A DNA stretch of 27,677 nt from a virus: the IMG/VR virus record IMGVR_UViG_3300025892_003569, positions 1 to 27,677 of that record. The stretch is one strand, 5' to 3'. Made by a program: the position numbers and the translations under genes. Each line of letters begins with the position of its first letter. Position 1 is the stretch's first letter. Below, piece after piece: positions 2,643 through 19,140 of the stretch. The notes under the pieces are model-generated. The model was not told the origin of the DNA and did not search any database. It saw only the letters and a list, made by a program, of their open reading frames with translations.

Positions 2643-3154
2643 TAAATAGTATAAATTGTCTTTAAATTTCTATTATGTCCTTTATCGTCATCCATACCAT
2701 ATCCTATATACCAAGGATCAAATATGGAATCAGCATCTTGGTGTAATATATGAAGTACTTTATCAAAATCCCCGCTTTCTTTATAAATTGCTACGACAGG
2801 AGTAATTGATTTTGGTTCTTTTACCTGTAGGAAGTTGGAAACTGCTTTCATAGTATTACCAGAATCTAAAATATCATCTACAAGATAAACATGTTTATGT
2901 TTTATTTTGGTTTCTAAATCTTTAGTAATTACTAAATCACCTTGTTTTTTACCATAATATGATTTACAACGGATAAAATCTATTTCAATAGGTATGGTGA
3001 TTTGTTTAACTAAATCGCTAAAAAACATAAACCCACCATTTAAAACACAAACTAATACTACAGGTGTAGGATCATTTCTATGTTCATCATTTATTTTTTT
3101 AGCTAGAATTTTAATTTGAATATCTAGCTCTTTTTCACTTATTGCTTTTTCCAT
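2642..3154 (-). CDS. hpt: Hypoxanthine-guanine phosphoribosyltransferase-like
   Basis: A 170-residue type I phosphoribosyltransferase. The PRPP-binding loop LVDDILDSGNT lies at residues 91-101, preceded by hydrophobic strands (VVLVCVLNGGFMFF) that carry the first PPi loop of the HPRT family. The length matches bacterial Hpt (about 175 aa). It should salvage hypoxanthine or guanine with PRPP to IMP or GMP in the cytoplasm. It sits directly upstream of folE with a one-base overlap, so the salvage product could feed GTP into preQ0 synthesis as well as DNA. Which purine base it prefers cannot be read from sequence. Xanthine specificity is possible. Confidence 0.88.
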   Translation of the reverse strand: MEKAISEKELDIQIKILAKKINDEHRNDPTPVVLVCVLNGGFMFFSDLVKQITIPIEIDFIRCKSYYGKKQGDLVITKDLETKIKHKHVYLVDDILDSGNTMKAVSNFLQVKEPKSITPVVAIYKESGDFDKVLHILHQDADSIFDPWYIGYGMDDDKGHNRNLKTIYTI

Positions 3155-3762
3155 TAAACTAAATCGTCTGAATTAATTAAAGTGTAAGTAAATGAATTAC
3201 TCCAGGTGTCGGCAGCAAGATGGCAGATTTCCATAAATAATTTAAAATCATCATTAGCAGCAATTACTTGACATCCTGCACTCCATTTATCAATTTGGGT
3301 AGATTTTTTACCTTCCCATTTAGTAGCTCGGTGGATGTTAATCCCAAATAACCCAGTTTGAGTATTTTCTTCATCTAAGTCATAACAATTATCTAAATTA
3401 TTATCACGGTAAACTGTTACAGGTTTTTGTTGTCCTAATGCTTCATACTTTCCTTGGTGAAGTCTAATTTTATGGGAACCTCTATATTGGTCTTCTTTTA
3501 GGATAGCAACACCTTCTTCTCTCATAACATTTTCCACCCAATGTTTACCAGGATCTGTTGTACAATCAAAGCAATGGTATTGCCACTCATTGTTTTTTTT
3601 ATAAGATAAAGTTATATAATCATCAAATTTATTAGTTACTTCATTTAAAGTTTCAGAGTTTCTTACACCTACTATATTAAGGTTATAATCACCATTTTCG
3701 AACCACTTATAGCCTTTATCTTTAACTGCGGTTTCAATCTGTTGTCTTGTTGGTTTATTCAT
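3154..3762 (-). CDS. YkuD-like phage protein (SAGC motif), possible peptidoglycan enzyme
   Basis: A 202-residue protein with a pattern like the L,D-transpeptidase (YkuD) active site: GINIHRA (H144), a spacer, then SAGCQV (S161, C164), matching the H-x(14-17)-S/T-x-G-C arrangement. Upstream conserved-looking blocks are NIVGVRN, TDPGKHW, LHQGKYEALGQ and VYRDNN. I recall this whole architecture from Bacteroidota phages and prophages, usually annotated hypothetical. No signal peptide is visible, so to reach peptidoglycan it would need a holin or the virion. It could therefore be a lysis enzyme, a virion-associated wall enzyme, or a fold relative with another substrate. It overlaps thyX by eight bases and hpt by one. 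Confidence 0.65.
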   Translation of the reverse strand: MNKPTRQQIETAVKDKGYKWFENGDYNLNIVGVRNSETLNEVTNKFDDYITLSYKKNNEWQYHCFDCTTDPGKHWVENVMREEGVAILKEDQYRGSHKIRLHQGKYEALGQQKPVTVYRDNNLDNCYDLDEENTQTGLFGINIHRATKWEGKKSTQIDKWSAGCQVIAANDDFKLFMEICHLAADTWSNSFTYTLINSDDLV

Positions 3763-4417: not shown

Positions 4418-4427
4418 TTTTTATATT

Positions 4428-4625
4428 TTATTCTTCTATTAGTTCAATTTCCCCATGATCTTCAAGACATTTATCATGGGATAATTCAAATTCGACTTCA
4501 TCCTCAACTTCTTCTTGTAGTGCTTCATCACCTGATTTCCACTTTTTCAATTGTTCAGGAGTTAACTCCTCGGTTTCTTCCCACCTGTAATCAGTGTAAG
4601 TAACTAGTTTTCTTAATTTAGCCAT
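4428..4625 (-). CDS. Small acidic protein, 65 aa
   Basis: A 65-residue soluble protein with a basic start (MAKLRKLVTYTDYRW) and a strongly acidic remainder with about twenty Glu/Asp residues. There is no signal peptide or membrane segment. Small acidic phage proteins often act as DNA mimics or inhibitors of host enzymes, but nothing specific identifies that here. It lies in a 12-nt and 10-nt spaced slot between the dockerin-like ORF and thyX and reads well as a gene. I do not recognise the family. The single Cys argues against a metal site. Confidence 0.6.
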   Translation of the reverse strand: MAKLRKLVTYTDYRWEETEELTPEQLKKWKSGDEALQEEVEDEVEFELSHDKCLEDHGEIELIEE

Positions 4626-4637
4626 TATATAACGATA

Positions 4638-4826
4638 CTATTTTTCTTCGTAAACTCCAACCTCGTTAGGAGAAGGTTGCATAGCTAACATATCCATTAT
4701 ATCAAAAATATCTATCTGACCATTACCATTAAAATCAAATTCTGAAGCATCATCTTGGGGGGTTAATGGTAGCCCGTAAGCGGCTACCATTAATAAAAAA
4801 TTCATTATCCAAGACCCTAGGCTCAT
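4638..4826 (-). CDS. Small dockerin-like (EF-hand-like) protein, possibly exported
   Basis: A 62-residue protein with a hydrophobic N-terminus (MSLGSWIMNFLLMVAAYGLP), a possible signal peptide or anchor. One calcium-loop-like repeat follows at about residues 28-44 (DFNGNGQIDIFDIMDML), with the D-x-N-x-N-x-Q-I-D-x-x-D pattern of a dockerin type I half-repeat. A full dockerin has two such repeats, and two occur in the phage metalloprotease at 8235-10241. One half is too short to bind a cohesin in the usual way. It overlaps the lipoprotein gene by four bases and is part of the second envelope block. The role is unknown. Confidence 0.6.
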   Translation of the reverse strand: MSLGSWIMNFLLMVAAYGLPLTPQDDASEFDFNGNGQIDIFDIMDMLAMQPSPNEVGVYEEK

Positions 4827-5089
4827 TTTTTAATATCTGTTTTGATTACTAAAACTCCTTCTTTAGTTGGATGTTTTTCTATCACCCATGTCATTCCATT
4901 CCAATCAGTAAATTCTTCACCAATTGTAATATTACTTTCCCAATATCTTACTGGATATTGTCCGTCCCAATAAGTGGGAATCATAGCGTCGAACCCAAAT
5001 TTACTTGGATTTTTATAAACTTTTGTTGGGATAATACCGTAGCATCCCGAAAACAAAAGCAAAGATAAAATTAAAATTATATTTTTCAT
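4823..5089 (-). CDS. Putative lipoprotein, 88 aa
   Basis: An 88-residue protein with a lipoprotein signal: MKNIILILSLLLFSGC, lipobox FSGC with Cys16 as the lipidation site. The mature part, about 72 residues, is polar with several Trp and Tyr residues (YWDGQYPVRYW, DWNGMTWVIE) and looks like a small beta-rich domain. It should be anchored in the inner or outer membrane. Phage-encoded lipoproteins commonly act in superinfection exclusion or as spanin subunits. The absence of a proline-rich stalk makes an o-spanin less obvious. It overlaps the 1049-aa T9SS protein upstream by four bases and so shares its transcript. Confidence 0.75.
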   Translation of the reverse strand: MKNIILILSLLLFSGCYGIIPTKVYKNPSKFGFDAMIPTYWDGQYPVRYWESNITIGEEFTDWNGMTWVIEKHPTKEGVLVIKTDIKK

Positions 5090-8000
5090 CTGAATATTGT
5101 TATGTGTCCTGTATTTGTGAATGTGTTAGATGGGTCCCATCCTACACCTTGTACTTTATATAAATATACACCATCTGCTACATAATAACTTCCACCACCC
5201 ACACTAGCAGGCCAAATCTCCCCGACAGTATTACTTTCCCACACTAAACTTCCCCACCTATTATAAATTTGAACATTCCATGCTCTCCAACAGCTTTCAT
5301 CTGCTATTACAATTTCCCAACCATCATTTAAACCATCATTATTAGGAGTAAAAGTATTAGGAATAAAGTATGACCCATCACAAGGTTCTAAATAAACACA
5401 AGAACCATCGTCATCTGTCGCTTGGAAATTATAATTTAAAGCTTCGGGGTCTGTACATCCTCCTAAGTAAATAACACACGAACCGTCATCCACAGTAGCG
5501 AGTGGGTTATAATTGGAAGCAATCGGGTCAGTACACCCAAATACATCATATTCACAAGAACCGTCATCGATATTGGCGATCGGGTTGTAATTGAGTGCAT
5601 TAATGTCAGTGCACCCAAACACATCATAAGTACAGCTTCCATCATTGATAGTAGCCAGGGGGTTATAGTTATTGGCTGAAGGGTCTGTACAACCAAGTAA
5701 GTCATAAGTACAAGACCCGTCGTCCCATTCTGCAGTTGGGTCGTAATTAGTAGCTTCTTCATCTGTACATCCATAAATACAGCTAGCAACGGCATCTTGA
5801 TAACAAGCTATAGGTTGGGGCCAAGTAATATCTGTTTCTTCACCTTCTAAAGTTTCAAGTTTGATGGTAACTCCTCCACCTCCATCAGTTGTTATAGGAC
5901 CAAATTCCATAGTAACACTTTCACCTGGGAGTAGTTCTCCTTCAAAACATTCAATTACATCAGGTCCACTTAATATATCATAATTAATACAAAAGTTTGT
6001 AATAGTTGTATTACCTACGTTATCAAAAAATAATATAGCAGTATAATAAGCCCCAGTTTCATCACAATATAAATCACACTCATAATCAATATAAAGTAAT
6101 TCGGTTTCAGGAAAAATACAACATTCTATAATAGGCTCACATGTAATATTAGCTTCAGGATTATAATTTAAAGCATCTGGAATCATACATCCTATAATAG
6201 GGTCTATACAACTTCCGTCATCTATAGTAGCAAGTGGGTTATAATTTACAGCGTTAATATCAGTACACCCCGAAATACAATCGGGCTCATCTGTTATAAT
6301 TTGGACATACATGTTATTTCCAACATTATTATCTAACCCAAAATCATTCCATGATTGATCACTAGAACCATTTACATCAATTATTCTAACAGTTAAAACC
6401 CCCCATTCATACATGTTAGGCCATTCCAATTCATAAGTTTCTCCAGGAGGTATTATAAAATTATCAAAACAAACAGTATCATCGCCCGCTAAAGTTCCTA
6501 ATATATCTTCAGTTACACATAATTCTGTTATAGGAACTTCCCCATAATTAGTAAGATAAAAAATTGGTAACCAATAGGCTCCAAATTCATTACACCCCGT
6601 TTCATATAAAATTGTATCTAACCCCACATCTACAATAGGCAAATATTCACATAAATCATTATTAGTACACTCAGTTGTCATGTTATAGTTTAAAGCTAAT
6701 GGATCTGTACAATCAGGTATACACACTGGGTAAGCAGGTAGTGTTGTACATATTACATTATCCTCGGGGGTAAGTTCTATTTGATTAACTAAAGTTGCAG
6801 TAGCACAAAGAGTATCCCCTTCTTGCCAAAGCATTTGGGTTGTAATTGTATTAATAGTAGGAGCGGTAACACCCGGAGGTAGGGGGACATTATATGGTGG
6901 TGGTTGGTTACCATCAACTCCTTGGTTAGAGGCTGCAATAAAACCATTAGGGCCTGTCCATGTAATTTTCCAAGTATATATACTATCTAAACCCGTATTA
7001 GTATAAGTAGTATGAAATCTTATACCTTCATTACATCCTACCCCAAGATTAAAAACATCACAATCTGCTTCTACTATAAATAATTCATCCATAGCTATAT
7101 CACCTGTTGTTGGGCAATTAAATAAATCAATATAATAATCCCAATAAGTATCATCATTTTGATAGGCATTACATAATTCTTCTCCATTAGGAGTATCACA
7201 AACTACACAGGACCCATCATTTACAGTTGCCTCATCATTATAATTACATGCTATAGGGTTTTGACAACCTAATATAATGTATTCACAACTACCATCATTA
7301 AAAGTAGCTACAGGATCATAATTATCGGCTTCTTCATCAGTACATCCAGGATATAAAGGTGAAGGAGGCAATTCATCAGGACACCAAACTAATGAATTAT
7401 TAGATAAATCAATATCTGGGTACATTTGAGTTTGATCCACACAAACTCCACAGGTATCTGTCCAATATTGTTCAGGAAAATCTATAATATCCGCTGTTTG
7501 GGATAAATTAATTTGCCATACTACCATTTCCCAACATTGATCGTTTTCTAAATCGGCCCCTAATAAACATTCCCAATCAAAAAATGTATTTAATTCAACA
7601 TTAAGAGTATCTCCTGTGTATAATCCTTCTCCAGCACTAAGTGTTGATTGGTTTATAGGGTAAGAAAATGTCCATCCTGGGTGATAATTGGATTGGGAGC
7701 AGGGACCATCACTAAAGTCTTCATATATGTGCAAACCAAAGACAAAATGGTTAATAGTTTCATTATTATTTACAATTGATGAACTATTATCGGGCCCACA
7801 TGTACCACCATCTGTGGTTGTAAATTCATTACACCCACAATTTTCTCCATTTATAATAGCAACAGATACTTGGTGGGTTTCGGGATCGTAACCAATTAAA
7901 TCTACATCACATTGTGGAACATCAGGTACCACAGGTACCCATCCATCATTTTCATCATAAAAATACTCAACACAACAAGAAGTTTCTGCAAAATAAATAC

Positions 8001-8235
8001 AAGTTACAATGTTGTTATAAAAATTTTCATTAAAAACAAAATGATTCTGATTCCCATCGGAATCTTGATTTATTATAGTTCCATCAAGAGCAGATGTTTC
8101 CCAGTAGTCTGGGGCTTCCCCCTCTAATGGGAGAGTCATTACTATTTGGTAGTGTGTACCTCCTATTCCTATAGATTCACATTGTGCTGAGGTAAATAGT
8201 GGGATTAAAGTTAAAAATAATAAAATATATTTCAT
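5086..8235 (-). CDS. Secreted GCTD-repeat protein with T9SS type B sorting domain
   Basis: A 1049-residue exported protein. The ATG at 8235 gives signal peptide MKYILLFLTLIPLFTSAQ and overlaps the metalloprotease stop as TAATG; the longer frame would need a TTG start. The body is Cys-rich beta structure, with CARDB-like stretches (for example VDVGLDTILYETG, LYIDYECDLYC) separated by about ten repeats of the form GCTDxxAxNYNP...DDGSC. The last five are in direct tandem. The C-terminal 95 residues, starting YFIPNTFTPNNDGLNDGW and containing IYNRWGSLVW, VADGVYLYKV and GHITIFR, match the gliding-motility-associated T9SS type B target domain. The predicted path is Sec export, then host T9SS to the cell surface. 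Function is unknown; adhesion or surface masking is a guess. Confidence 0.85.
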   Translation of the reverse strand: MKYILLFLTLIPLFTSAQCESIGIGGTHYQIVMTLPLEGEAPDYWETSALDGTIINQDSDGNQNHFVFNENFYNNIVTCIYFAETSCCVEYFYDENDGWVPVVPDVPQCDVDLIGYDPETHQVSVAIINGENCGCNEFTTTDGGTCGPDNSSSIVNNNETINHFVFGLHIYEDFSDGPCSQSNYHPGWTFSYPINQSTLSAGEGLYTGDTLNVELNTFFDWECLLGADLENDQCWEMVVWQINLSQTADIIDFPEQYWTDTCGVCVDQTQMYPDIDLSNNSLVWCPDELPPSPLYPGCTDEEADNYDPVATFNDGSCEYIILGCQNPIACNYNDEATVNDGSCVVCDTPNGEELCNAYQNDDTYWDYYIDLFNCPTTGDIAMDELFIVEADCDVFNLGVGCNEGIRFHTTYTNTGLDSIYTWKITWTGPNGFIAASNQGVDGNQPPPYNVPLPPGVTAPTINTITTQMLWQEGDTLCATATLVNQIELTPEDNVICTTLPAYPVCIPDCTDPLALNYNMTTECTNNDLCEYLPIVDVGLDTILYETGCNEFGAYWLPIFYLTNYGEVPITELCVTEDILGTLAGDDTVCFDNFIIPPGETYELEWPNMYEWGVLTVRIIDVNGSSDQSWNDFGLDNNVGNNMYVQIITDEPDCISGCTDINAVNYNPLATIDDGSCIDPIIGCMIPDALNYNPEANITCEPIIECCIFPETELLYIDYECDLYCDETGAYYTAILFFDNVGNTTITNFCINYDILSGPDVIECFEGELLPGESVTMEFGPITTDGGGGVTIKLETLEGEETDITWPQPIACYQDAVASCIYGCTDEEATNYDPTAEWDDGSCTYDLLGCTDPSANNYNPLATINDGSCTYDVFGCTDINALNYNPIANIDDGSCEYDVFGCTDPIASNYNPLATVDDGSCVIYLGGCTDPEALNYNFQATDDDGSCVYLEPCDGSYFIPNTFTPNNDGLNDGWEIVIADESCWRAWNVQIYNRWGSLVWESNTVGEIWPASVGGGSYYVADGVYLYKVQGVGWDPSNTFTNTGHITIFR
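5398..5771 (-). repeat. Tandem GCTD protein-repeat array (5 units)
   Basis: Five directly adjacent units of about 25 codons encode GCTDxxAxNYNP...DDGSC in the 1049-aa T9SS protein. DNA identity between units is partial, with many synonymous differences, so the array is not a very recent expansion. Five more diverged units lie upstream in the same gene. Confidence 0.85.
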
Positions 8236-10241
8236 TAGTTCCAAGAATTAAGGAATACTTTTTTAGTTGTTATATTACCATTTGACCAATTTTGTACAAC
8301 TATATAAATACCAGGGGCAAGTCTTCCCTTGTTATTTACTTCACGGCCAGTAAGGTCAAAATATATAGGTGGTCCTATTTTACAAAGGCCATTAACATCT
8401 ATAATTTCAGTTACATTAGCTGTAAAATTATCCTCAACTAAAATCCCGTTGCAATCGTAACTATATTGATTTAGAAATAATGTTAAATCATTTATATCGG
8501 TTTCACCATCAAAATTAAAATCAGTTGGGTGACATTCACTTTGTTGACCTGTCTCAGATAAAAATATGAGTAAATCTGAGTTGCCTGTAATACCGTCACC
8601 ATCTAAATCTGTGGGACAGTCATTTATAGGACATGGATTTGGAGCTTCAACACAAAATTGAAATTTTAAGAGTTGGGGTTCATCAATTTCTTCATCTGCA
8701 TAATAAATTTGTTCACCATTGGATAATTGTATATCTACATAACAACCAGGATATCCTAATAAATCAACTAATTCACAATCTAGGTTAGAATTACTTGTCC
8801 ATCGCCACCACAACTCATAACAACCTGGTTGTAAACAATAAGACCATTCAATAGGCCAATCATCAGCTGAGAAAAATTGACCAGTTTCCCAACATTGTGG
8901 TCCACCCCAATTACAAGAAGCAATTGGACCCGGGATATATTGGTTGTTTTCTATATCATATTCATGTATTCTCCACTGAGTACTGGAAGAAAACCCATCA
9001 TAATATACAATACTTATTTCGGTAAAAGGTTGGATAGGAAGATTTTGTATTAATGAGTTATTAAATTCCCAACCATCATCAGGGGTAATTAAATCTATAA
9101 GGACTGTGTAATCTCCAAATTGGAAAGTATAAGGATCAAAAATAATTTCAAAAGTTTCGTCTTGATCTAAAGTAACAACACCTGTATAGTTATCATAATA
9201 AACTTCTTCAAAAGTTGAATCTAATACTTGTATTTGACATTCTACAAAAAATGATCCATCTAAACCAAAATTCTTAACGGTTATTGAAGGGTCTAAGTAA
9301 GTATTACATTCTGGATTATTGTTTGTAAAACTTATTACAGCTAAATCAACATCTGAATTGCCACAAGCTATATTATTATTAATAACATCTGGTCTTAGGG
9401 TTTCAAGTTGTGCATGCATACGATCAACTTGCCCCGGAGTAAATAAAGTCCTACATTGATTAGGAGCATAGGACATATAAGAATTAATAACATCACCTGG
9501 GCATACGGGTTGGCAACTAAATGCTTGTATAGTAGGAGGAGTATCACAAACCCTATCACCCTGTGTTTCGCAATCAATTTCAGTAGAGGCGTCTTCACAA
9601 TCATCGTATGTAGGGTTAAATCCATCACTAAATGTGTGGAATAAACCACACCAATGACCCACCTCATGTATTAGAGTTTTAGATGTTGGGTCACTAAACC
9701 TATTAGTACGAACCCAACAAGTAGGACCCGTTGGTAAAGTAGCAAATCCGCTTGGGCCACTCGTCCAATTGTCTACATATATATTAAGATATTCGTTAGG
9801 TTCAATAATTGTTTGACCACTTACATAAGAATGATAATCTTGAGCATTATTACTAAAATCATATCCAGGAAATTTAGTAAGTACATTGTGGTATACAATC
9901 CCATTAATAGCTTCTCCATTAGGTCCAACAGAGGCTATGCATAATTCTAAAGAAGCATTAGAATCTTCAAACCAAGTATTAACACTATCAATAGCTTGAT
10001 ATGCTATTTCTGAGGAGAGATGGGGGGAAACACTATAAGGCTCACCTTCATGTAAAATGTGAACAATCGTTGGAATTATCTTAGGTATATTTAAAGAATT
10101 CCTTTTAATAGGTTGGATGGGAACTTCCGAGTGTGTATTAAATTTATTAACTTTATCAAACCCACACCACTGTGGCGTACTTTGGGCTCCTAAGAGCCCA
10201 ATGGAAAAAAATGCCAGTAATAGGCTTACTAATTTATTCAT
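8235..10241 (-). CDS. Secreted M43-family metalloprotease with dockerin-like repeats and T9SS tail
   Basis: A 668-residue exported zinc protease. The ATG at 10241 gives signal peptide MNKLVSLLLAFFSIGLLGAQ; a TTG three bases upstream is possible. The catalytic motif HEVGHWCGLFH (HExxHxxGxxH) is at residues 192-202, and the Met-turn SYMSY around M256 is followed by CRTLFTPGQVDRM, as in pappalysin/M43 peptidases. A CARDB-like domain (about 300-400) and a Trp/Cys-rich domain come next. Two calcium-loop repeats follow near 545-600 (DLDGDGITGNSD and DFNFDGETDIND, dockerin-like). The last 50 residues (FDLTGREV...APGIYIV...KKVFL) resemble the T9SS type A sorting domain. It probably acts on proteins at the host surface or outside the cell. 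It is the first gene after the hairpin at 10295-10321. Confidence 0.87.
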   Translation of the reverse strand: MNKLVSLLLAFFSIGLLGAQSTPQWCGFDKVNKFNTHSEVPIQPIKRNSLNIPKIIPTIVHILHEGEPYSVSPHLSSEIAYQAIDSVNTWFEDSNASLELCIASVGPNGEAINGIVYHNVLTKFPGYDFSNNAQDYHSYVSGQTIIEPNEYLNIYVDNWTSGPSGFATLPTGPTCWVRTNRFSDPTSKTLIHEVGHWCGLFHTFSDGFNPTYDDCEDASTEIDCETQGDRVCDTPPTIQAFSCQPVCPGDVINSYMSYAPNQCRTLFTPGQVDRMHAQLETLRPDVINNNIACGNSDVDLAVISFTNNNPECNTYLDPSITVKNFGLDGSFFVECQIQVLDSTFEEVYYDNYTGVVTLDQDETFEIIFDPYTFQFGDYTVLIDLITPDDGWEFNNSLIQNLPIQPFTEISIVYYDGFSSSTQWRIHEYDIENNQYIPGPIASCNWGGPQCWETGQFFSADDWPIEWSYCLQPGCYELWWRWTSNSNLDCELVDLLGYPGCYVDIQLSNGEQIYYADEEIDEPQLLKFQFCVEAPNPCPINDCPTDLDGDGITGNSDLLIFLSETGQQSECHPTDFNFDGETDINDLTLFLNQYSYDCNGILVEDNFTANVTEIIDVNGLCKIGPPIYFDLTGREVNNKGRLAPGIYIVVQNWSNGNITTKKVFLNSWN

Positions 10242-10294
10242 CAACTAAGTTTTTAAGAACGGACTGTATACTTGTTTTATCGATGATAAATATT

Positions 10295-10321
10295 AAGGGG
10301 ATGCGGTTCGCGCATCCCCTT
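10295..10321. terminator. Perfect 11-bp stem-loop, probable transcription terminator
   Basis: Arms AAGGGGATGCG and CGCATCCCCTT are perfectly complementary around a 5-nt loop, unusually GC-rich for this genome. On the plus strand a T6 run follows within two bases, the classical intrinsic terminator form. On the minus strand, where all the genes lie, the downstream stretch is only TTAATATTTAT. It sits in the roughly 100-nt gap between the 45-aa gene of the DNA-modification cassette and the metalloprotease gene. It may act in both directions, or as an RNA-stabilising 3' end. No convincing promoter was found in the rest of the gap. Confidence 0.75.
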
Positions 10322-10344
10322 GTTTTTTATGGTAAATGGTGTTT

Positions 10345-10482
10345 TTAGTCTTTTAGCTGTAGAATTATTAATTTAAGTTTATCTATTAAATCTTCAACTT
10401 CATCGGGCTCCATCGTGACTGCACAGCAGATACCAACATTAGATTTAATTTCTTCTAGTAATTCTAATGCTTCTTCCTTCAT
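10345..10482 (-). CDS. Small helical protein, 45 aa
   Basis: Hand translation of the gap after queE reveals a 45-residue ORF: MKEEALELLEEIKSNVGICC, then a polar turn containing AVTMEPDE, then a helix (DLIDKLKLIILQLKD). It is acidic and probably a two-helix hairpin. The ATG overlaps the queE stop by one base (TAATG), and the ORF ends 23 bases before the strong hairpin, so it is the last gene of the modification cassette. The CC pair could bind metal or form a disulfide. I do not recognise it. A role linked to preQ0 synthesis or insertion is suggested by position only. Confidence 0.65.
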   Translation of the reverse strand: MKEEALELLEEIKSNVGICCAVTMEPDEVEDLIDKLKLIILQLKD

Positions 10483-11258
10483 TAAACACCACGTTCTGTG
10501 TTATAAGCTATAATGTGATCTCTCCCTGTCATATTATAGCCATACTCTGCTACCATTTCAAACACTTTAGGATACATTTCAATTAATGTTTCACGTGTAT
10601 CCCCAGCAGGCATTACAAATGTTTTATCTTTAGGAATGTCCATTTTTTGTCTAAATTCCTCTATCTCAGCTAAACCTTCATCTGTACCATCCCAAACTGG
10701 TTTGTAATGGTAGTCATCATGATATTTTAGAGTTTTTTCAATATTTTCATAATGTAATCTAAACCTCTCATGAGTTTTGACAAACCTTTCATCAACAACT
10801 TTCCCACCGGGAGTAGTAATGCCAACACGAGGGACAGAATTGCTAAACTTAGGACTAAGAGATATGAGATTAATAGGATAGTCGGTTTCAACAAAATGGG
10901 ATCCTTCTGTTTCGATTGTAATAAAGATTCCTCTTTCGTTGGCGAAGTGTGTAAGTTCATTTACTAGGGCGGGATGCATTGTAGGTGAACCACCTGTAAG
11001 CATCATTTCTTTTACTTGTGGGTTCTTATCATAAATATCTACAATGTCATTAAATGTAAAAGTACCTTTTTGTGGGTGAATACTTGTGTACCAAGAATCA
11101 CACCATCCTCCCTCACCAAACCAACAACGATGGGTACATCCTGTTGTTCTTACTGCAATAGTAGGGCGGCCAAATCTAGAGCCCTCACTTTGTACACATC
11201 TATATACTTCTAATACTGGAAGTATTTTATTGTAATCTTCTATTCTTTTATTCGGCAT
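10482..11258 (-). CDS. queE: 7-carboxy-7-deazaguanine synthase (QueE), radical SAM
   Basis: A 258-residue radical SAM enzyme expected to convert 6-carboxy-tetrahydropterin to 7-carboxy-7-deazaguanine. The N-terminus VLEVYRCVQSEGSRFGRPT matches the QueE 'F.SiQGEG...G.p..FvR' block. The cluster cysteines are C41, C45 and C53 (GCTHRC, then GGWCDSW), spacing C-x3-C-x7-C instead of C-x3-C-x2-C; other QueE proteins also carry insertions here. MMLTGGSPTMH is the GGEP-like SAM motif and ETEGS the next conserved strand. The ATG at 11258 (MPNKR) is preferred to the GTG at 11267. It overlaps queD by 11 bases and the 45-aa gene by one. Confidence 0.88.
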   Translation of the reverse strand: MPNKRIEDYNKILPVLEVYRCVQSEGSRFGRPTIAVRTTGCTHRCWFGEGGWCDSWYTSIHPQKGTFTFNDIVDIYDKNPQVKEMMLTGGSPTMHPALVNELTHFANERGIFITIETEGSHFVETDYPINLISLSPKFSNSVPRVGITTPGGKVVDERFVKTHERFRLHYENIEKTLKYHDDYHYKPVWDGTDEGLAEIEEFRQKMDIPKDKTFVMPAGDTRETLIEMYPKVFEMVAEYGYNMTGRDHIIAYNTERGV

Positions 11259-11706
11259 AAATCGCACTATTTTTTCCGTGTTCCCTAAATTCTACTTGCT
11301 TAACTCTAACACGCCCTTCTGTTTCTTCTTTTACAAACGTATTAAGCTTACCATAAATATATTCAGCAAATCGTTCTGCTCCAGTAGCTGGGATTACTCT
11401 TATTTGGGCTGCTCCTGCTTCATCCATTCTTTGGAAGGATTCAAGAAATGGATCGTCTTCTGCTACAACCATAGTATGGTCAAACATATAATCCATCCAT
11501 GCTTTGGGGTTCATACCATCAATTTGGGTTTTAGCACGTTTCATACCACCAAAATCCCAAACCCAATTCTTTTCGTCAAGTTCTCCTTCAAACCATACTT
11601 TAAAACTTACCCCATAACCATGAAGAAATCTACAGTGTGTTTTTTCTGCTTTCCATTGACGGAACACACAACTAAACCCATCAAATATTTTTGTTGATTG
11701 ATACAT
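11248..11706 (-). CDS. queD: 6-carboxy-tetrahydropterin synthase (QueD/PTPS family)
   Basis: A 152-residue member of the 6-pyruvoyl-tetrahydropterin synthase family, expected to make 6-carboxy-5,6,7,8-tetrahydropterin from dihydroneopterin triphosphate. The catalytic Cys is C25 in THCRFLHGYG, followed by WVWDFGGMK, FDHTMVV and ATGAERFAEY, which supply the conserved Asp, His and Glu. EFREHGKNSA is the usual C-terminal strand. Two positions that normally hold zinc-binding His look changed: the first-strand His is Phe15 (SCVFRQW), and the second His of HGH is Tyr31 (HGYG). Other phage QueD proteins I recall also have HGY. It overlaps queC by one base and queE by 11. Confidence 0.85.
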   Translation of the reverse strand: MYQSTKIFDGFSCVFRQWKAEKTHCRFLHGYGVSFKVWFEGELDEKNWVWDFGGMKRAKTQIDGMNPKAWMDYMFDHTMVVAEDDPFLESFQRMDEAGAAQIRVIPATGAERFAEYIYGKLNTFVKEETEGRVRVKQVEFREHGKNSAIYAE

Positions 11707-12503
11707 TATACTGCGTTTAAGATTTGTTCAACATGCTTTTGTACAACATCCCAGGAGACAGGTCCAGATTCATCAGCATATGATACTGGATCTGGTCTTC
11801 CCACTTTAAGAAAAGCTTCAACCCTTTCCACCGATGAAGCTGATTTATAATCACTGTACCAAGTCCCATTAATATTAAGGGGCTTATAAGAAGTATTTGT
11901 ACGCCTGTAAACTTCATCAAATTGTAACCCCAGTCGCTCGCAGCACCTAATACCATCGTGTAGTATATCAAACTTATCCCCATTAAGGTAAGGGGTAACA
12001 TAGCTAACGCGATCAGCGTCCCAGTTGCCTTCGGTGAAAGCCTTATAGTCAGCATCCCTGAATTCTTGTCTACAATCAGGGTAAATAGCGTGATCACCTG
12101 CGTGAATACCCATAGCAATATGGACTCTAGTATTTTTTTCATTTGCAATAGATAAGGCAACAGCCTGAATTAATGATGAGAAGATTTTATTACGATTAGG
12201 AACAACGGTTTCTTTCATATTTTCTTGTTCGTAGTGTCCTTCAGGTACTTCATCCCCACCTTCTACAAGGGCACTATTAAGCATCGGAGCTAAACCATCA
12301 AGTTTAATAGTTCCATACTTTACATTTTGCCCATTATCATTAAGATAATTAACTAATGTTTGAGCTCGTTCAAGTTCTACTCTGTGTTTTTGACCATAGT
12401 CAAAAGACAGTGCTGTCACTTCATAGCCATCGGCAAGTAGATGAAGTAACACTGTGGAGCTGTCCATACCTCCACTCAGTGACAATACTGCTTGTTTTTT
12501 CAT
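11706..12503 (-). CDS. queC: 7-cyano-7-deazaguanine (preQ0) synthase QueC
   Basis: A 265-residue ATP-PPi-loop enzyme that converts 7-carboxy-7-deazaguanine to preQ0 with ATP and ammonia. The PP-loop SGGMDSS is at residues 10-16, SFDYGQKHRVEL follows at about 33, and VVPNRN at about 100 is the second family signature. DKFDIL and RTNTSY mark the C-terminal half. The four zinc cysteines normally found in this region (Cys, then CGxCxxC before the ERxEAF helix) are absent: the region reads TSYKP...YSDYKSASSVERVEAF, with Ser or Asp at those places. It is not fused to a glutamine-amidotransferase domain. It overlaps the DpdA-like gene by four bases and queD by one. Confidence 0.9.
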   Translation of the reverse strand: MKKQAVLSLSGGMDSSTVLLHLLADGYEVTALSFDYGQKHRVELERAQTLVNYLNDNGQNVKYGTIKLDGLAPMLNSALVEGGDEVPEGHYEQENMKETVVPNRNKIFSSLIQAVALSIANEKNTRVHIAMGIHAGDHAIYPDCRQEFRDADYKAFTEGNWDADRVSYVTPYLNGDKFDILHDGIRCCERLGLQFDEVYRRTNTSYKPLNINGTWYSDYKSASSVERVEAFLKVGRPDPVSYADESGPVSWDVVQKHVEQILNAV

Positions 12504-13288
12504 AACGCGTTTATTCTTTTAAATTGTGTTGTATTATATTCTATCTTACTGTAAATATCAGAATCATATTCTCCTTTCATAACCTCATCAATTTTTGTTT
12601 TAGGTTTTGAACTTAATCCCCAATGGTTGTAAATAGTCCCATCAAACGCAGCCATTACAGGATTTGAAGTATCAATGCTTTCAATTTGTTTTATATCTTT
12701 ATAATATAAAAACTCTTGTGGGAGAGAACAACCTAAGAGATGAATTCTATCAGTATGTCCTATAAGTTCCATATCAATCATATCACTAATAACTGCTAAA
12801 CGACCTATAGCTTTACCCCAATCTTTATTAGGGTGTTTGCAAATATCGTTATAATAACTAGCCCCATAACTAAATGCAATCTTCGTGTAACCTAACCATT
12901 TATACGTTTGATAACACTTTACTACGTCACTAAACGATTTACCTTGTACGACAGCGACTTTTTCTACGCCCTCTGGGAGTTCAATAAAGCTCCATTCTTT
13001 TGCTTGACGCATAGAAGTAATTGCATCTTCCCAAGCATCCGGGACTATAAATTCATCTGGTTTGATTTCTTCAATAATAGAAATCATTCTACCTTTTGAG
13101 TAAGGTACTCCAAGTTCATGGAGAGAGTTATCCATTACAATATGACGACGCTGTCTGTGGTTTTCTCTTTGAAAGAATTCTTTATATTCAGTATATTCAT
13201 CATATAAGTGGGGAAGCAAGTAATCATAGTCATTAAACTTTAGACTTTGTTCTAAATATGCAAAAGGTATTTCGTGGGATACTTTCAT
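12500..13288 (-). CDS. dpdA: DpdA-like DNA 7-deazaguanine transglycosylase
   Basis: A 262-residue protein with the skeleton of tRNA-guanine transglycosylases in a short phage form. VMDNSLHELG (D53) aligns with the first catalytic Asp region, VVQG (113-116) with the strand motif, HLLGCSLPQEF (183-193) with the family's YLMGVGxPxD, and SIDTSNP (D206) with the nucleophile-Asp block of TGT. The C-terminal zinc-binding CxCxxC...H site of tRNA enzymes is missing, which fits a DNA-acting DpdA. The inferred reaction is exchange of guanine in phage DNA for preQ0 made by the next three genes, blocking host restriction enzymes. It overlaps the AT-hook gene by one base and queC by four. Confidence 0.83.
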   Translation of the reverse strand: MKVSHEIPFAYLEQSLKFNDYDYLLPHLYDEYTEYKEFFQRENHRQRRHIVMDNSLHELGVPYSKGRMISIIEEIKPDEFIVPDAWEDAITSMRQAKEWSFIELPEGVEKVAVVQGKSFSDVVKCYQTYKWLGYTKIAFSYGASYYNDICKHPNKDWGKAIGRLAVISDMIDMELIGHTDRIHLLGCSLPQEFLYYKDIKQIESIDTSNPVMAAFDGTIYNHWGLSSKPKTKIDEVMKGEYDSDIYSKIEYNTTQFKRINAL

Positions 13289-13791
13289 TATTTTATTTTT
13301 GGGGGTCTACCTCTACGAGGTGCCGTAGTAGGCCTATTAAATTTGCCATATCTCATTTCACAATGATGATAAAATTCTTTTAACGTACCTCCAACCTCAA
13401 TTACATCTCTTTGATAATCATCTCTATCCATTTTAAATGTGTTAAGAAAATCTTTTTGCAATTGCTTAAGATTATCATATTCATATTTTTCATGGTCCTC
13501 ACGTAAACGTCTTCGGCGATTACGATCTATCGTAGTTTCAGCAACCCATTCACGAATATCAGGTAATTGTTTACGTTTTTCTTCAATTTCCCAATCACAG
13601 TAATAAATTTGCCAACGGTAAGGACTATCATCATAGTCACCATTTTTAATTTTATCAATTAAAGGAGAATATTTGTGGAGGGGTTTTCCCTTACGAGTCC
13701 ACCTCCTCCACCAAAAAAATCTATTATAATTAAGTTTTTGAAGTTTTGATAATTTCTTTTCAATAACTTCAATTGAAGGGGTATTAACCAT
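13288..13791 (-). CDS. Basic protein with C-terminal AT-hook, first gene of modification cassette
   Basis: A 167-residue, strongly basic protein rich in Arg, Lys, Trp and Tyr (FFWWRRWTRKGKP near the N-terminus, RNRRRRLRE at mid-length). The C-terminus PRRGRPPKIK is an AT-hook-like minor-groove binding motif (core RGRP). It has no signal peptide or membrane segment. It directly precedes dpdA with a one-base overlap (TAATG) and follows a host-type promoter. A role in DNA binding, such as targeting or regulating DNA modification, is plausible but inferred. I do not recognise the main domain. Because the promoter lies so close to the ATG, its mRNA may be leaderless or nearly so. Confidence 0.72.
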   Translation of the reverse strand: MVNTPSIEVIEKKLSKLQKLNYNRFFWWRRWTRKGKPLHKYSPLIDKIKNGDYDDSPYRWQIYYCDWEIEEKRKQLPDIREWVAETTIDRNRRRRLREDHEKYEYDNLKQLQKDFLNTFKMDRDDYQRDVIEVGGTLKEFYHHCEMRYGKFNRPTTAPRRGRPPKIK

Positions 13792-13794
13792 ACC

Positions 13795-13826
13795 CTAAAT
13801 ATACAAAATAAAATTTAGAAAGCCAA
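13795..13826 (-). promoter_or_regulatory. Bacteroidota-type promoter for DNA-modification cassette
   Basis: Read on the minus strand, TTG (13826-13824), 20 nt, then TATATTTA followed by G: one mismatch to the -33/-7 consensus TTG-N(19-21)-TAnnTTTG. It fills the only gap between the SNase and AT-hook genes and shares TTTGG...TATATTT with the site at 26550-26580. The -7 box ends only four bases before the ATG, so the transcript would start at or next to the start codon. Confidence 0.6.
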
Positions 13827-13828
13827 AT

Positions 13829-14209
13829 TTATCTTTTACCTCCGTTGTATTCTACAGCGTGTCCTTCGGTAATAAGTTGTTTATTTACATCAATAAGAGT
13901 AATCCCATCATCTCCATTTAAGGGAGAAAGAGATTCAACAAAAACCGTAGATAACGCTCTTCCAAATTTTCCTACTCCAGATACTCGTAAAACACATTCA
14001 TTATTATTATGTTTTAAAATTTCTTGAAGACGTGCTTTAGCGGCTAATCCCAGTTTTTTTTCTTCTAAGTCTCGAGTTCTTGATTCTGGGGTGTTGATTC
14101 CCTCCATTCTAACTCTTACTTTCTTCCAGGTTTTAAATCCTAGATCGATAGTAACATCTATTGTATCACCATCAACTACTCTATCAACAATTGCTTTATA
14201 CTCGTACAT
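13829..14209 (-). CDS. Staphylococcal-nuclease-like (thermonuclease) protein
   Basis: A 126-residue SNase-fold nuclease. VDGDT (D13, D15) gives the calcium-binding loop, VRMEGINTPE supplies R34 and E42, equivalent to the catalytic Arg35 and Glu43 of staphylococcal nuclease, and KFGRAL supplies R84 for Arg87. The second calcium Asp of the usual DTPE/DAPE motif is Asn39. There is no signal peptide, so it should act inside the cell, perhaps degrading host nucleic acid to feed phage dNTP synthesis. How it spares phage DNA is unknown. It overlaps the 73-aa membrane gene by one base. A promoter separates it from the modification cassette. Confidence 0.85.
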   Translation of the reverse strand: MYEYKAIVDRVVDGDTIDVTIDLGFKTWKKVRVRMEGINTPESRTRDLEEKKLGLAAKARLQEILKHNNNECVLRVSGVGKFGRALSTVFVESLSPLNGDDGITLIDVNKQLITEGHAVEYNGGKR

Positions 14210-14430
14210 TACTTTTTAGCAAATTTTTCTAATCCTGCTATACCAAAGCAACCTAAGGTAATAATAACAAATGAGTTATAGATTAGTTCGTTAATAACTA
14301 AGTCTTTTCCACAGTAGCCAGTTGCCAAATCTACTATAGCAAATACTGTCATTATTGCAAATGCCGAAAAACCAACTACTGATTTTTCGTTAATATCGTT
14401 ATCGTCTTTAAAAATGTCTGAAAATGCCAT
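14209..14430 (-). CDS. Small two-helix membrane protein (holin-like size)
   Basis: A 73-residue protein with a short acidic head (MAFSDIFKDDNDINEKS) and two hydrophobic helices, about residues 18-37 (VVGFSAFAIMTVFAIVDLAT) and 47-66 (LIYNSFVIITLGCFGIAGLE), ending in the basic FAKK. Its size and topology fit a class II holin or another small inner-membrane protein. Neighbours do not settle this: no endolysin lies beside it, and the nearest wall-enzyme candidate is the YkuD-like gene at 3154-3762. It is coupled to the SNase gene by a one-base overlap and starts 12 bases after the outer-membrane protein gene. Confidence 0.65.
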   Translation of the reverse strand: MAFSDIFKDDNDINEKSVVGFSAFAIMTVFAIVDLATGYCGKDLVINELIYNSFVIITLGCFGIAGLEKFAKK

Positions 14431-14442
14431 GATGTTGTTATT

Positions 14443-15474
14443 TTATAAAATTCTATAATTAAAACCAACTGAAAAATCATGCCATGCACGGTTCCAATAC
14501 TTATGGTATTTTCCTTCTGAGAAAAGACCTAATCTTTTATTTACTTGCCAACCTAAAATTAAACCCCCTGTGTAGTCAAACCATGTGTTACCATCTACAA
14601 AGTTAGTATATGAGTATTCATTTTTAGCACTTACGTGAAGAGGTAATACACTACCCCATGAATGAAACCAAAAGGATTTTGTGTAGTGGTAATAATCATA
14701 TCCTAATACTAATGAATGGTTCCACTGATAGGGTAGTAGGGATCTTTCTTGATCAACGTATTCATTTAGTACACTGGGGAGGGCAACAGCATTCCATACT
14801 ATGTTATTTTCAGCAACTACATCACCATTAGGGTTAAGCCATTCACCTTCAAAATTAGTACCATAACCTTGCTCAACAGCTATATTTGTAAAATCAGCTC
14901 CCGCTAAATCTGATAAAGGGTCAAAGCCATAGGGTTCAGAAAAGCGTTGGACTAAACCTATATTTAAGGAAAATTCTTTTGCTATGTTATATCTGTAACG
15001 TTGAGAGGCTTCGAAATACCTTAAATCAGCAAACCCATCTTGAACATATTCTATTTTTATTATCCAGTGATCGTGAACATATCTTAAAAAATGTTGTTGA
15101 TCAACAAATTTCCTTCCTTGTTGTCTTTTGTAGTCAAACTCAAATAAATATTCTAAACCTTCTACATTACCTACTGTAGCAGCATCCGAAACAGATGTTT
15201 CAGTTCCATTATAGAATACATTTTTTCTATTTTCATAATCTAAACGGGCAATTTTTCTAACACCAAAAGCTAAAGTATAATCAAAAGGAGTAGATACAAT
15301 ACTTTCTTCTAAAATACCAGTAGAAGGGTTTATTGAATATAAACTAACATCTGCTAGTGAATTATTACCTGTTACTGCAGTATAAAAAGTAGCAAACTTA
15401 AGTTGTTTTTCTAAAAATTGGGCTTGTGCCGATATAGAGCAAGCTAATAATAATATAGCTAGTAATTTTTTCAT
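14443..15474 (-). CDS. Putative outer-membrane beta-barrel protein
   Basis: A 343-residue protein with signal peptide MKKLLAILLLACSISAQAQ. Many alternating aromatic/polar strands follow (YRYNIAKEFSLNIGL, WNHSLVLGYDYYHYT, WFDYTGGLILGWQV, WHDFSVGFNYRI), the look of an outer-membrane barrel. The last strand ends FNYRIL. It lacks the DPQFTQYM opening typical of PorP/SprF proteins that serve type B T9SS cargo, so I do not call it that. It overlaps the 1010-aa T9SS protein by four bases. A phage-encoded barrel could change receptor availability or help surface display of the neighbouring protein; both are inference. Confidence 0.75.
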   Translation of the reverse strand: MKKLLAILLLACSISAQAQFLEKQLKFATFYTAVTGNNSLADVSLYSINPSTGILEESIVSTPFDYTLAFGVRKIARLDYENRKNVFYNGTETSVSDAATVGNVEGLEYLFEFDYKRQQGRKFVDQQHFLRYVHDHWIIKIEYVQDGFADLRYFEASQRYRYNIAKEFSLNIGLVQRFSEPYGFDPLSDLAGADFTNIAVEQGYGTNFEGEWLNPNGDVVAENNIVWNAVALPSVLNEYVDQERSLLPYQWNHSLVLGYDYYHYTKSFWFHSWGSVLPLHVSAKNEYSYTNFVDGNTWFDYTGGLILGWQVNKRLGLFSEGKYHKYWNRAWHDFSVGFNYRIL

Positions 15475-18400
15475 TGTTTAACGATTTTTTTAGTGAACTG
15501 GAGATCGTTGTATGTAAGGATTAGGTTGTAAATACCTGCTTTATACTTACTTAAATCTATTTGTTGTACATTATTGTTTTGATATACAGGTTGTCCTACA
15601 GCGTTGTATAATGTAGCATTAACATTTAAACTACTTGCTACAGTAATTATGTTTCTTGTTGGGTTAGGGAATACAGTAATTTGAGTTTCACCAAACTCTT
15701 CTACATTAGTTACTGTGTTTTCATCACAATAGTTGTATAAAGTTTGACACCCATCAGCCCACTCACTGTTGCAACAACTTGGGCTTACATCAATTACCCA
15801 AGCAAAACAAGAATTTTCTAAATCTAATAAATTATAAGCTTCTACTACTGGGTCAATGCAGTTAGCATATACTGTTTCGCAAGTTCCATTATCGGTATTT
15901 GCTTCTTCATTATAGTTGGCAGCTTGTGGATCGGTGCACCCATATACTATTTCAATGCAACTAAAGTTTTCAGTATTAGCTTCTGGGTTATAGTTAAATG
16001 CTGATGGGTCGGTACAACCTTCAATAAATATTTCACATCCTACATTTGTATTAGCTAATGGATCATAGTTAAAGGCAGTTTCATCTGTACAACCAAATAT
16101 TACTTCTTCACAAGATCCATTATCTGTGTTTGCTAACTCATCATAATTAAATGCTGTGGGGTCAGTACAACCAAATATTTCAGCTTCACAAGTACCATTA
16201 TCAGTATTAGCTTGGGGGTTATAATTAATGGCTTCTTCATCAGTACAACCTTCTACCACTGATTCACAACCAACATTTGTATTAGCAAGTGGATTATAAT
16301 TAAAAGCAGTTTCATCTGTACAACCAAATATTACTTCTATACACGTACCATCATCCGTATTAGCTAATAAATTAAAATTAAATGCCTCTACATCAGTGCA
16401 ACCTAAGATTGGGAGGATACAACTAAAATCTTCTGTATTAGCTTCAGGAACATAGTTTAGCGCTTCAGGGTTAGTACAGCCTTCTACAATAGATAAACAT
16501 GAATTGTCATCTGTATTAGCTAATGGATCGTAGTTAAATGCTAATTCGTTAGTGCAACCAAATATTTTATCAATACATGTTTCATTATCTACATTTGCCT
16601 CTTCTTCAAAATTAAAAGCATCTAGGTCAGTACACCCAAATATTGCTAAAGTTTGACAACTTCCATTATCAAAATCAGCTTCAAATCCTTGAGTATAATA
16701 TTCTAAATAGCCAGCACTAGTACAACCGGGTTGGTAATAACAACTTTCATCATTGGTATTTGCTTCTTCGTTGTAATTAACTGCTATATTATCTAAACAA
16801 CCATAAACAAATTCCTCACAAGTATTACCACAGTACAAGTCTATCTCGTAAACATACCACCCACTTTCCCCAGTAAATGGAATTGCACTAAAGAAAGGAA
16901 TATCTAAAATAATATCACCCTCAGGGTTGGTTAACGTAAGCCCACATTGTTGGATAGTATTAATTGATTGGGGAGTAGTAAAGAAATACACATAAGCTTT
17001 TTTAGAAGCATCCAAACCAGATACATTAAATGATAATTCAGTGCCATCATTAGGACCCATTTGGTATTGAGGTGAAAAATACCATTGTTGATATATCCCA
17101 ACCCAACTACCAAACCAACCATCCCCAACACCATCTGTAATAGTTAAAGTATAATCACAAAACTGAATAACATCTTCAGTGTTAGCTTCAGGGTTATAGT
17201 TGAATTGGGTTTCATCTAAACATCCTAATACAATAGGAGTAACACAAAATGATTCAAGTGGGTTATCTATAATAGCTTCGGGGTTGTATTCTACGTAGTT
17301 AGGGTCAGTACATCCTACTAGATCAGCTATACCCTCACATACTGTTGGAGTAAATGGGTCTGATCCTGCTATATAACCAAAATTCCCATCTGGGTATTCG
17401 TCTTGAAGATTGTATAATACTTCACCTTCACAATCTAAAATTTGAATATTACCGGGTTGTCCATTTACTCCCACTATTCCATCACCATATGAATCTTCTA
17501 TTACAATATCATAAGGTTGGGCAATAGGAACACAAACACCAGTTGTGACAGGGATACCAGGAGGAGAACCGGCATAAGTACCTACAGGGGCAGATGCTAC
17601 ACTTCCTAAATCTCCATATAAAACCCAGCTTACTTCACCACCCCAAGGGTCAGGGGTTACTACAATCTCAAGTAAGGTTTCACCTAAAGTACATTCTGTA
17701 GTTTGATCTATGCAAGAACCATCGTCAAAATTAGACCAAGGACTCCAGTTAATGGCATTAAAATTAGTACATCCAGGAATAGCACCACAAGGTAAACACG
17801 ATTCCCAACAATAATTAAGAAGAACTGTTTCTTCCTCTTCAATTACTGTTAATGTTCTATTAACGAACCCAAACTGGTCAAATTGGAAACAAGAACCTTC
17901 ACTAACACCCACAGGTAATTCTTGTAAATCAGGATTATCAAAATCAGCAAATTTCCATAAATAATTTCCTGCTGGTATAGGAATAGTTACAAACCACTCA
18001 TCATCCTCATCATATTCCATAGGAATAACTTGCCACCCATTCCAGTTGCCTAATACGCCAGGTGTTTCAATTTCAGGTGGAGCATTAGCTAGATTAACTC
18101 TGAACATTACATCTGTTGTAGGTAATTCACAAGGAGTTAAATTAAAATCATAGCTAGCTATGGATGATCCAAATTCATATTCTTCAAATATTACACCATC
18201 ACAATTATTAGCAGTTATAAAAAATCCATCTCCAAATTCACAACAAATACCATCACCAAAAGCATCAATGATTGTAAATGTGTAATCAATATTAGAATTT
18301 AAAAATACTCTTTGTTGGACTAATGTGTTAGGAGGTGTATTAGCATAACTAGGGCTAACAACAACTGTATCGGCTCCTTGAGTTATTACCCAGGCAGTTT

Positions 18401-18503
18401 CTGGTGGGTATTGATCAAGTTGAATTGTAAGGTCTAAGTATGTTGGCTGAGCCAAACATGTGAGACCAATAAGTAATAAAAGGGAAGTTAATAATTGTTT
18501 CAT
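15471..18503 (-). CDS. Secreted GCTD-repeat protein with T9SS type A sorting domain
   Basis: A 1010-residue exported protein. Signal peptide MKQLLTSLLLLIGLTCLAQ is followed by a beta domain containing DAFGDGICCEFGDG, then a starch-binding-like (CBM48/SusF-like) domain at about 130-235 (MFRVNLANAPPE, GVLGNWNGWQVIPM, GNYLWKFADF). About fifteen GCTD repeats follow; ten are in uninterrupted tandem towards the C-terminus. The last 75 residues (TQITVFPNPTRNIITV, LYNAVGQPVY, YKAGIYNLIL, KKIVKQ) are a textbook T9SS type A sorting domain. It should leave the cell by Sec and host T9SS and be anchored or released at the surface. Polysaccharide binding is suggested by the CBM-like domain only. It is coupled to the thioredoxin-like gene upstream and the barrel gene downstream. 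Confidence 0.88.
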   Translation of the reverse strand: MKQLLTSLLLLIGLTCLAQPTYLDLTIQLDQYPPETAWVITQGADTVVVSPSYANTPPNTLVQQRVFLNSNIDYTFTIIDAFGDGICCEFGDGFFITANNCDGVIFEEYEFGSSIASYDFNLTPCELPTTDVMFRVNLANAPPEIETPGVLGNWNGWQVIPMEYDEDDEWFVTIPIPAGNYLWKFADFDNPDLQELPVGVSEGSCFQFDQFGFVNRTLTVIEEEETVLLNYCWESCLPCGAIPGCTNFNAINWSPWSNFDDGSCIDQTTECTLGETLLEIVVTPDPWGGEVSWVLYGDLGSVASAPVGTYAGSPPGIPVTTGVCVPIAQPYDIVIEDSYGDGIVGVNGQPGNIQILDCEGEVLYNLQDEYPDGNFGYIAGSDPFTPTVCEGIADLVGCTDPNYVEYNPEAIIDNPLESFCVTPIVLGCLDETQFNYNPEANTEDVIQFCDYTLTITDGVGDGWFGSWVGIYQQWYFSPQYQMGPNDGTELSFNVSGLDASKKAYVYFFTTPQSINTIQQCGLTLTNPEGDIILDIPFFSAIPFTGESGWYVYEIDLYCGNTCEEFVYGCLDNIAVNYNEEANTNDESCYYQPGCTSAGYLEYYTQGFEADFDNGSCQTLAIFGCTDLDAFNFEEEANVDNETCIDKIFGCTNELAFNYDPLANTDDNSCLSIVEGCTNPEALNYVPEANTEDFSCILPILGCTDVEAFNFNLLANTDDGTCIEVIFGCTDETAFNYNPLANTNVGCESVVEGCTDEEAINYNPQANTDNGTCEAEIFGCTDPTAFNYDELANTDNGSCEEVIFGCTDETAFNYDPLANTNVGCEIFIEGCTDPSAFNYNPEANTENFSCIEIVYGCTDPQAANYNEEANTDNGTCETVYANCIDPVVEAYNLLDLENSCFAWVIDVSPSCCNSEWADGCQTLYNYCDENTVTNVEEFGETQITVFPNPTRNIITVASSLNVNATLYNAVGQPVYQNNNVQQIDLSKYKAGIYNLILTYNDLQFTKKIVKQ
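15879..16637 (-). repeat. Tandem GCTD protein-repeat array (10 units)
   Basis: Ten adjacent units of 25-26 codons with pattern GCTDxxAFNYNPxANTDNGSC-like. Units 5 and 8 of the array share a one-residue-shorter ending (NTNVGC). Their DNA (16264-16338 and 16033-16107) is nearly identical, with 33 identical bases in a row, offset by 231 bp. This indicates duplication of a three-unit block. Confidence 0.85.
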
Positions 18504-18855: not shown

Positions 18856-19140
18856 TTACTGTAATTTATCTATTTTAGCTTCGATTCTATCTAGATCTTC
18901 TTTAAGTTCGGATACATCCTCTTGGGTTGTCATAATTGTTTGACGAACAAGTTGATCTTTCATATCAAACTCCATCCTTGTAATTTCGGGGGCAGTAGGT
19001 GTCGGGAGTTCTTTTGCTTCCGCTATATCTGCTTGAAGTGCAAACCACATACTGACTATAGTTGCAATTGCTACTCCAATGCCTCCTAAGGTTTTTATAC
19101 TAATTGTAAAACCCGTGTCTTCATTTAACTCTTTTGCCAT
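18856..19140 (-). CDS. Membrane-anchored coiled-coil protein, 94 aa
   Basis: A 94-residue protein with a short N-terminal tail, one transmembrane helix at about residues 15-37 (SIKTLGGIGVAIATIVSMWFAL), a Pro-rich hinge (LPTPTAPEI) and a C-terminal heptad-like helix, about 55-94 (VSELKEDLDRIEAKIDKL). This fits an inner-membrane protein with a periplasmic coiled coil, as in i-spanins or tail-associated and holin-adjacent proteins. I know similar small proteins from marine T4-like phages without function. It is the first gene after the hairpin at 19168-19196 and leads the first envelope block. No obvious host-type promoter precedes it. Confidence 0.7.
   Translation of the reverse strand: MAKELNEDTGFTISIKTLGGIGVAIATIVSMWFALQADIAEAKELPTPTAPEITRMEFDMKDQLVRQTIMTTQEDVSELKEDLDRIEAKIDKLQ

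Follow-up and report, generated by a model that had tools for sequence, protein, structure and literature searches.

Why would a phage encode large proteins that carry the sorting signals of its host's secretion machinery? The DNA analysed here (the window, 27.7 kb) is record IMGVR_UViG_3300025892_003569, an entire linear IMG/VR entry and not a host genome. A sequence-only reading had described in it three genes for proteins with Sec leaders and C-terminal sorting domains (CTDs) of the type IX secretion system (T9SS) of Bacteroidota. All three genes and their leaders are present, on the minus strand and with the implied ATG starts (Table 1).

Table 1. Features of the window discussed in the text.
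Feature	Position	Strand	Basis and remarks
Endolysin-like gene	3154..3762	-	phrog_33083 endolysin, E 1.5e-15
P0001, type B T9SS protein with leader and 8 GCTD repeats	5086..8235	-	ATG start 8235
Type B sorting domain (CHU_C) of P0001	5098..5364	-	PF13585, 55.6 bits, residues 961-1049
P0002, M43 metalloprotease with dockerin-like stretch and weak type A-like tail	8235..10241	-	ATG start 10241
Type A-like tail of P0002	8256..8432	-	TIGR04183, 15 bits; 18.9 in record search
TM73, small two-TM protein	14209..14430	-	immuto relative directly before endolysin and holin
Barrel (predicted), 343 aa with leader	14443..15474	-	alignments A1 and A2, AlphaFold2, Foldseek
P0003, 1010-aa type A T9SS cargo	15471..18503	-	ATG start 18503; leader, repeats, CTD
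Type A sorting domain of P0003	15474..15674	-	TIGR04183, 44.6 bits in record search, above cut-off
Trx-like protein with leader, 116 aa	18503..18853	-	NxxN replacing CxxC; cis-Pro motif VPT kept
TM94, one predicted TM near the N-terminus, then a coiled-coil-like tail	18856..19140	-	sequence; co-conserved in 43/45 loci

The neighbourhood is of phage type, with replication and nucleotide genes (DNA polymerase, SSB, UvsX, exonuclease, DnaB, NrdAB and ThyX); no capsid or terminase gene lies within the 27.7-kb fragment. T9SS cargos are commonplace in Bacteroidota hosts, which would favour an assembly chimera of host and phage DNA, the event that the sequence-only reading said would undo its claim. 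Such a chimera is refuted to a point where we give it practically no weight, because the independent contig L010 repeats the order of the window (UvsX-exo-DnaB-NrdB-NrdA-TM94-Trx-like-cargo-barrel-SNase-DpdA-QueC-QueD-QueE-type B-ThyX), a second contig (G012, equal to L017/L200) shares its gene set with UvsX, cargo, barrel and type B CTD, and Flavobacterium phage immuto, isolated and completely sequenced, has a type A cargo after nrdA. The barrel, moreover, is nearly virus-only. We take the contig to come from a marine phage of Bacteroidota. The window also holds genes for QueE, QueD and QueC, a DpdA-like gene and FolE (10482-13288 and 1947-2642, minus strand), likely a 7-deazaguanine DNA-modification set; one gene of the immuto genome is annotated DpdA.

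Two of the three CTDs pass curated models. That of P0003 scores 38 bits with TIGR04183 (cut-off 23) and 34.6 bits with PF18962 (cut-off 27), and that of P0001 scores 37.4 bits with TIGR04131 (cut-off 35) and 55.6 bits with PF13585 (cut-off 27), which confirms the type A and type B assignments made earlier. The tail of P0002 had been called type A-like, a fair wording; at 15 bits it misses the curated TIGR04183 cut-off of 23, and its type A signal stays unconfirmed. The leaders of all three proteins, read from sequence, are of Sec type and end in ...AQ (MKQLLTSLLLLIGLTCLAQ in P0003), fitting the Q-rule for Bacteroidota Sec leaders as given in PMC10653852. P0003 and P0001 are strong candidate T9SS substrates, P0002 a possible one. 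A 62-aa protein with a weak EF-hand or dockerin-like stretch (4638-4826, minus strand) adjoins the T9SS genes.

The sequence-only reading knew of no described phage system of this kind; in this it was wrong, and the general idea of phage T9SS cargo is already known. Like the window, the Cryophage of Bellas et al. (2020) carries phage genes with type A sorting domains, three variable genes for which the authors proposed hijacking of the host T9SS; the cargos are an endoglucanase, a GH39 glycoside hydrolase and a PA14-domain protein, and the accessible part of that report does not mention barrel, TM94 or Trx-like partners (PMC7468147). The crAss-like cluster 2 phages of de Jonge et al. (2019) likewise have ORFs with T9SS sorting domains in phage contigs; unlike the window these are gut phages, and the ORFs lie near the head section and BACON-repeat ORFs (PMC6949934). 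Export of phage proteins by the host T9SS would still be the natural reading here, given a Sec leader, curated CTDs, a Bacteroidota-phage backbone and a CTD kept across many phages; what falls is the novelty and the notion of a single three-gene system.

P0003 is strongly acidic, with 52 cysteines and 12 GCTDxxAxNYxPxAxxDDGSC-like repeats (0.012 on average in a shuffled control). Its relatives form one homologous family in which cysteines, repeats and CTD are conserved: PF18962 matched each of 24 diverse cargos scanned singly, most of them with no enzyme domain seen, and all 131 complete cargos, duplicates counted, have at least one GCTD-type repeat. Leaders were called by eye and by pattern; among 84 distinct cargos, 79 start with one that matches a Q-rule-like pattern. 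Two tandem type A CTD genes, not one, precede the barrel in L112-L116, and a single 59.7-kb contig (IMGVR_UViG_3300030330_003594; L030 and L032) has a cargo-barrel pair at each end, with differing sequences.

The sequence-only reading overlooked the partners of this cargo. We sampled 78 non-redundant barrels, 45 of which have at least 4 kb on each side, each scan covering the best 80 loci by closeness to the query. All 45 loci with enough flank have a cargo no more than 6 kb from the barrel, on the same strand and in 28 cases immediately adjacent; the Trx-like protein accompanies the barrel at 44, TM94 at 43 and TM73 at 17. TIGR04183, which is independent of our own cargo profile, finds a match in 47 of 50 barrel records. 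Of the three genes first described, that for the type A cargo alone belongs to this conserved module: type B CTDs occur in just 9 of 50 related records, and the protease has no IMG/VR relative by the scan used, so the three genes are not one system. What is new is that P0003, the best supported of the three, is part of a conserved set of envelope genes seen again and again in marine virus contigs, hundreds of them in all. We found no account of the barrel/TM94/Trx-like/cargo cassette in the literature searched, a scope that stopped short of subscription journals and preprints. None of the four has a tblastn match in 50,697 GenBank phage records, where the P0003 CTD alone gave only weak matches. 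The cassette is patchy: starting from UvsX, we found a barrel match in 7 of 31 records and a type A CTD in 3 of 30.

The barrel gene overlaps the end of the P0003 gene by 4 bp. It has no Pfam family; its product is predicted to be an outer-membrane β-barrel with a leader, from an AlphaFold2 model of moderate confidence (pLDDT 75, pTM 0.68) whose Foldseek matches are outer-membrane barrels, the closest viral model at TM 0.73. A scan with the barrel alignment gave at least 571 confirmed viral loci. Across 84,980 species genomes it gave just one, and this sits on a phage contig, binned in a Flavobacteriales MAG, that also bears NrdAB, TM73 and the cassette; the barrel is almost virus-only. An NCBIfam match to the phage exclusion lipoprotein Cor was rejected, as it covers residues 1-48 only, at 12 bits against a cut-off of 31. 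The Trx-like protein of the window lacks the thioredoxin CxxC active site, and NxxN stands at that site in 74 of 87 unique members. The best match of TM94 among known spanin families, phrog_7686 (Rz-like spanin), is not significant (E 0.083).

A clue to function comes from relatives that have no cargo. Three records carry divergent 400-aa barrels (28-31% identical) in the order NrdA-small TM-TM73-barrel-TM94-Trx-like-endolysin; they represent two independent lineages only, the near-identical pair L269/L272 and L270. The endolysin matches PG_binding_1 and Amidase_2, and in the near-identical pair, one lineage, a Phage_holin_4_1 gene comes next. Most viral records compared are fragments. One cousin record spans 164 kb and has no TIGR04183 match, and these cousins contradict an obligate tie of the barrel to the T9SS. 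Relatives of the window's own endolysin-like gene sit near the cassette in some contigs, and in immuto the endolysin and holin genes directly follow a TM73 relative. The link to lysis is suggestive, not universal. It is weakened in that a recognised endolysin or holin lies within 9 kb at only 10 of 46 cassette loci, the window's cassette being among those without, and in that the cousins are so few; the window's cassette also follows nrdA, usually not a late-expressed gene.

Our preferred explanation, to which we give a probability of about 0.4, takes the cassette for an envelope module that acts late and is linked to lysis, in which cargo placed at the cell surface by the host T9SS acts with three co-inherited envelope proteins, the type B protein and the protease being separate. 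From what is known of these families, the phage-made cargo would be exported by the host Sec system, its CTD would then be recognised, and the host T9SS would carry it to the cell surface. There it may work with the barrel, the Trx-fold protein without catalytic cysteines and the inner-membrane coiled-coil protein TM94. The last three are co-inherited, and their probable locations are the outer membrane, the periplasm and the inner membrane. The module would likely prepare or breach the outer membrane as infection draws to a close, with the fast-evolving cargo acting on the outer face; the cargo may have been gained by the envelope module in one lineage. We prefer a tie to lysis because the parts would span both membranes and the periplasm, and because the barrel group persists beside an endolysin in cousins that have no cargo. 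That TM94, the cysteine-less Trx fold and the almost virus-only barrel form a three-layer machine for breaching or remodelling the outer membrane at lysis, with host-T9SS cargo coupled to it in one lineage, is a bolder proposal, and a doubtful one. We are not aware of a clear description of the way Bacteroidota phages get through the outer membrane when they leave the cell, and to our knowledge little has been learnt about how phages exploit host secretion systems; the cassette, with its four genes and its presence in hundreds of contigs of marine viruses, offers a concrete and testable module for both. Were the cargo to arrive at the surface, infected marine Bacteroidota would display a virus-coded protein there.

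Known release proteins resemble the cassette in part. Two-component spanins such as lambda Rz/Rz1 pair an inner-membrane spanin with a small outer-membrane lipoprotein. TM94 shares the topology of the inner-membrane spanin, would have an outer-membrane partner and, in relatives, has an endolysin among its neighbours; unlike in spanins, that partner would be a barrel, there is an additional Trx-like protein, and the sequence match is not significant. Phage-encoded CsgGF pores (Melnitz) are likewise outer-membrane proteins coded by marine phages, with a proposed role in lysis timing, but CsgG forms multimeric pores, has no sequence relationship to the barrel and comes without T9SS cargo (PMC9004378).

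The main rival, which we consider somewhat unlikely, keeps the surface display proposed in the sequence-only reading and drops the role in lysis: cargo and barrel would cover or mask the infected cell, so that superinfection is excluded or progeny do not stick to infected cells and debris. Such functions do occur in lytic phages, and S-layer-like phage proteins have been proposed to act against superinfection in a marine methylophage (PMC9004378). Divergence fits as well, since an exposed protein should change fastest: among pairs with barrels more than 80% identical, median identity is 86% for the barrel, 84% for TM94, 78% for the Trx-like protein, 67% for the CTD and 60% for the N-terminal part of the cargo. 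Masking, however, needs no inner-membrane coiled-coil partner, and the barrel, TM94 and the Trx-like protein persist by an endolysin where the cargo is missing. A second and improbable rival gives the barrel the role of a T9SS shuttle or anchor dedicated to the cargo, as the phage counterpart of SprF/PorP or PorV. The barrel gene directly follows a T9SS cargo gene, as in the PorP/SprF pairs of Flavobacterium johnsoniae (PMC12618676, PMC9143113), where a type B cargo gene is followed by an SprF-like shuttle gene (PMC12618676). The CTD of the window's cargo is type A, however, and type A CTDs use PorV as shuttle in F. johnsoniae (PMC12618676). Membership of either shuttle family is not supported: in 27 records including the window there is no TIGR03519 match at E 0.1, so that by this model the barrel is not of the PorP/SprF family, and the fold search returns generic barrels, the PorV fold (8gl6_F) at E 1.9e-3 and TM 0.32 for this moderate-confidence model, with unrelated barrels scoring as well. 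Barrel distances do track those of the CTD most closely (r 0.71; partial 0.55 vs 0.33 and 0.04), but in non-adjacent loci the CTD does no better than the other partners, and we do not take the mirror-tree correlation as proof of interaction. The cousins, too, have the barrel with no T9SS cargo detected.

The exported proteins might instead come from accessory genes of host origin, such as those for a protease or an adhesin, whose products nourish or alter the infected cell or its environment; no dedicated module would stand behind them. P0002 suits this best: it matches the M43 family (PF05572, 48.8 bits, cut-off 23), its zinc motif HEVGHWCGLFH is intact, no viral relative was found, and the closest solved structures are those of mirolysin and ulilysin, M43 proteases from bacteria or archaea. 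Endoglucanase and glycoside hydrolase among the Cryophage cargos point the same way (PMC7468147). We give this reading little credence, since P0003 is tightly co-conserved with three virus-specific genes and most of the 24 cargos have no visible enzyme domain. Under the module tied to lysis, we propose that P0001 and P0002 are separate accessory exports outside the type A module.

The isolate immuto (vB_FspM_immuto_2-6A, NC_055915.1), the closest by UvsX (63%), shares with the window related replication genes, Que genes, the type A cargo after nrdA and a TM73 relative, but has no barrel-family match. Its single type A CTD lies in gp15, a 243-aa cohesin protein (Pfam Cohesin and Por_Secre_tail). 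Next to it, in the gp13-gp15 region (L184 10527-13422), lie genes for a C-type lectin and for another secreted protein, each with dockerin-like stretches seen by eye, possibly a phage-coded cohesin/dockerin surface display. Between cargo and endolysin/holin, this immuto-type lineage (L271 8512-10803; L184 13426-15868) has genes for a TM protein, a leader-bearing protein and a large protein whose C-terminus, judged by eye, resembles a barrel; this set may stand in for the barrel cassette without being related to it. We considered immuto gp17 as a CsgG and rejected it for want of Pfam support. In L271, NrdA (2763-5912) is split by an intein-like insert.
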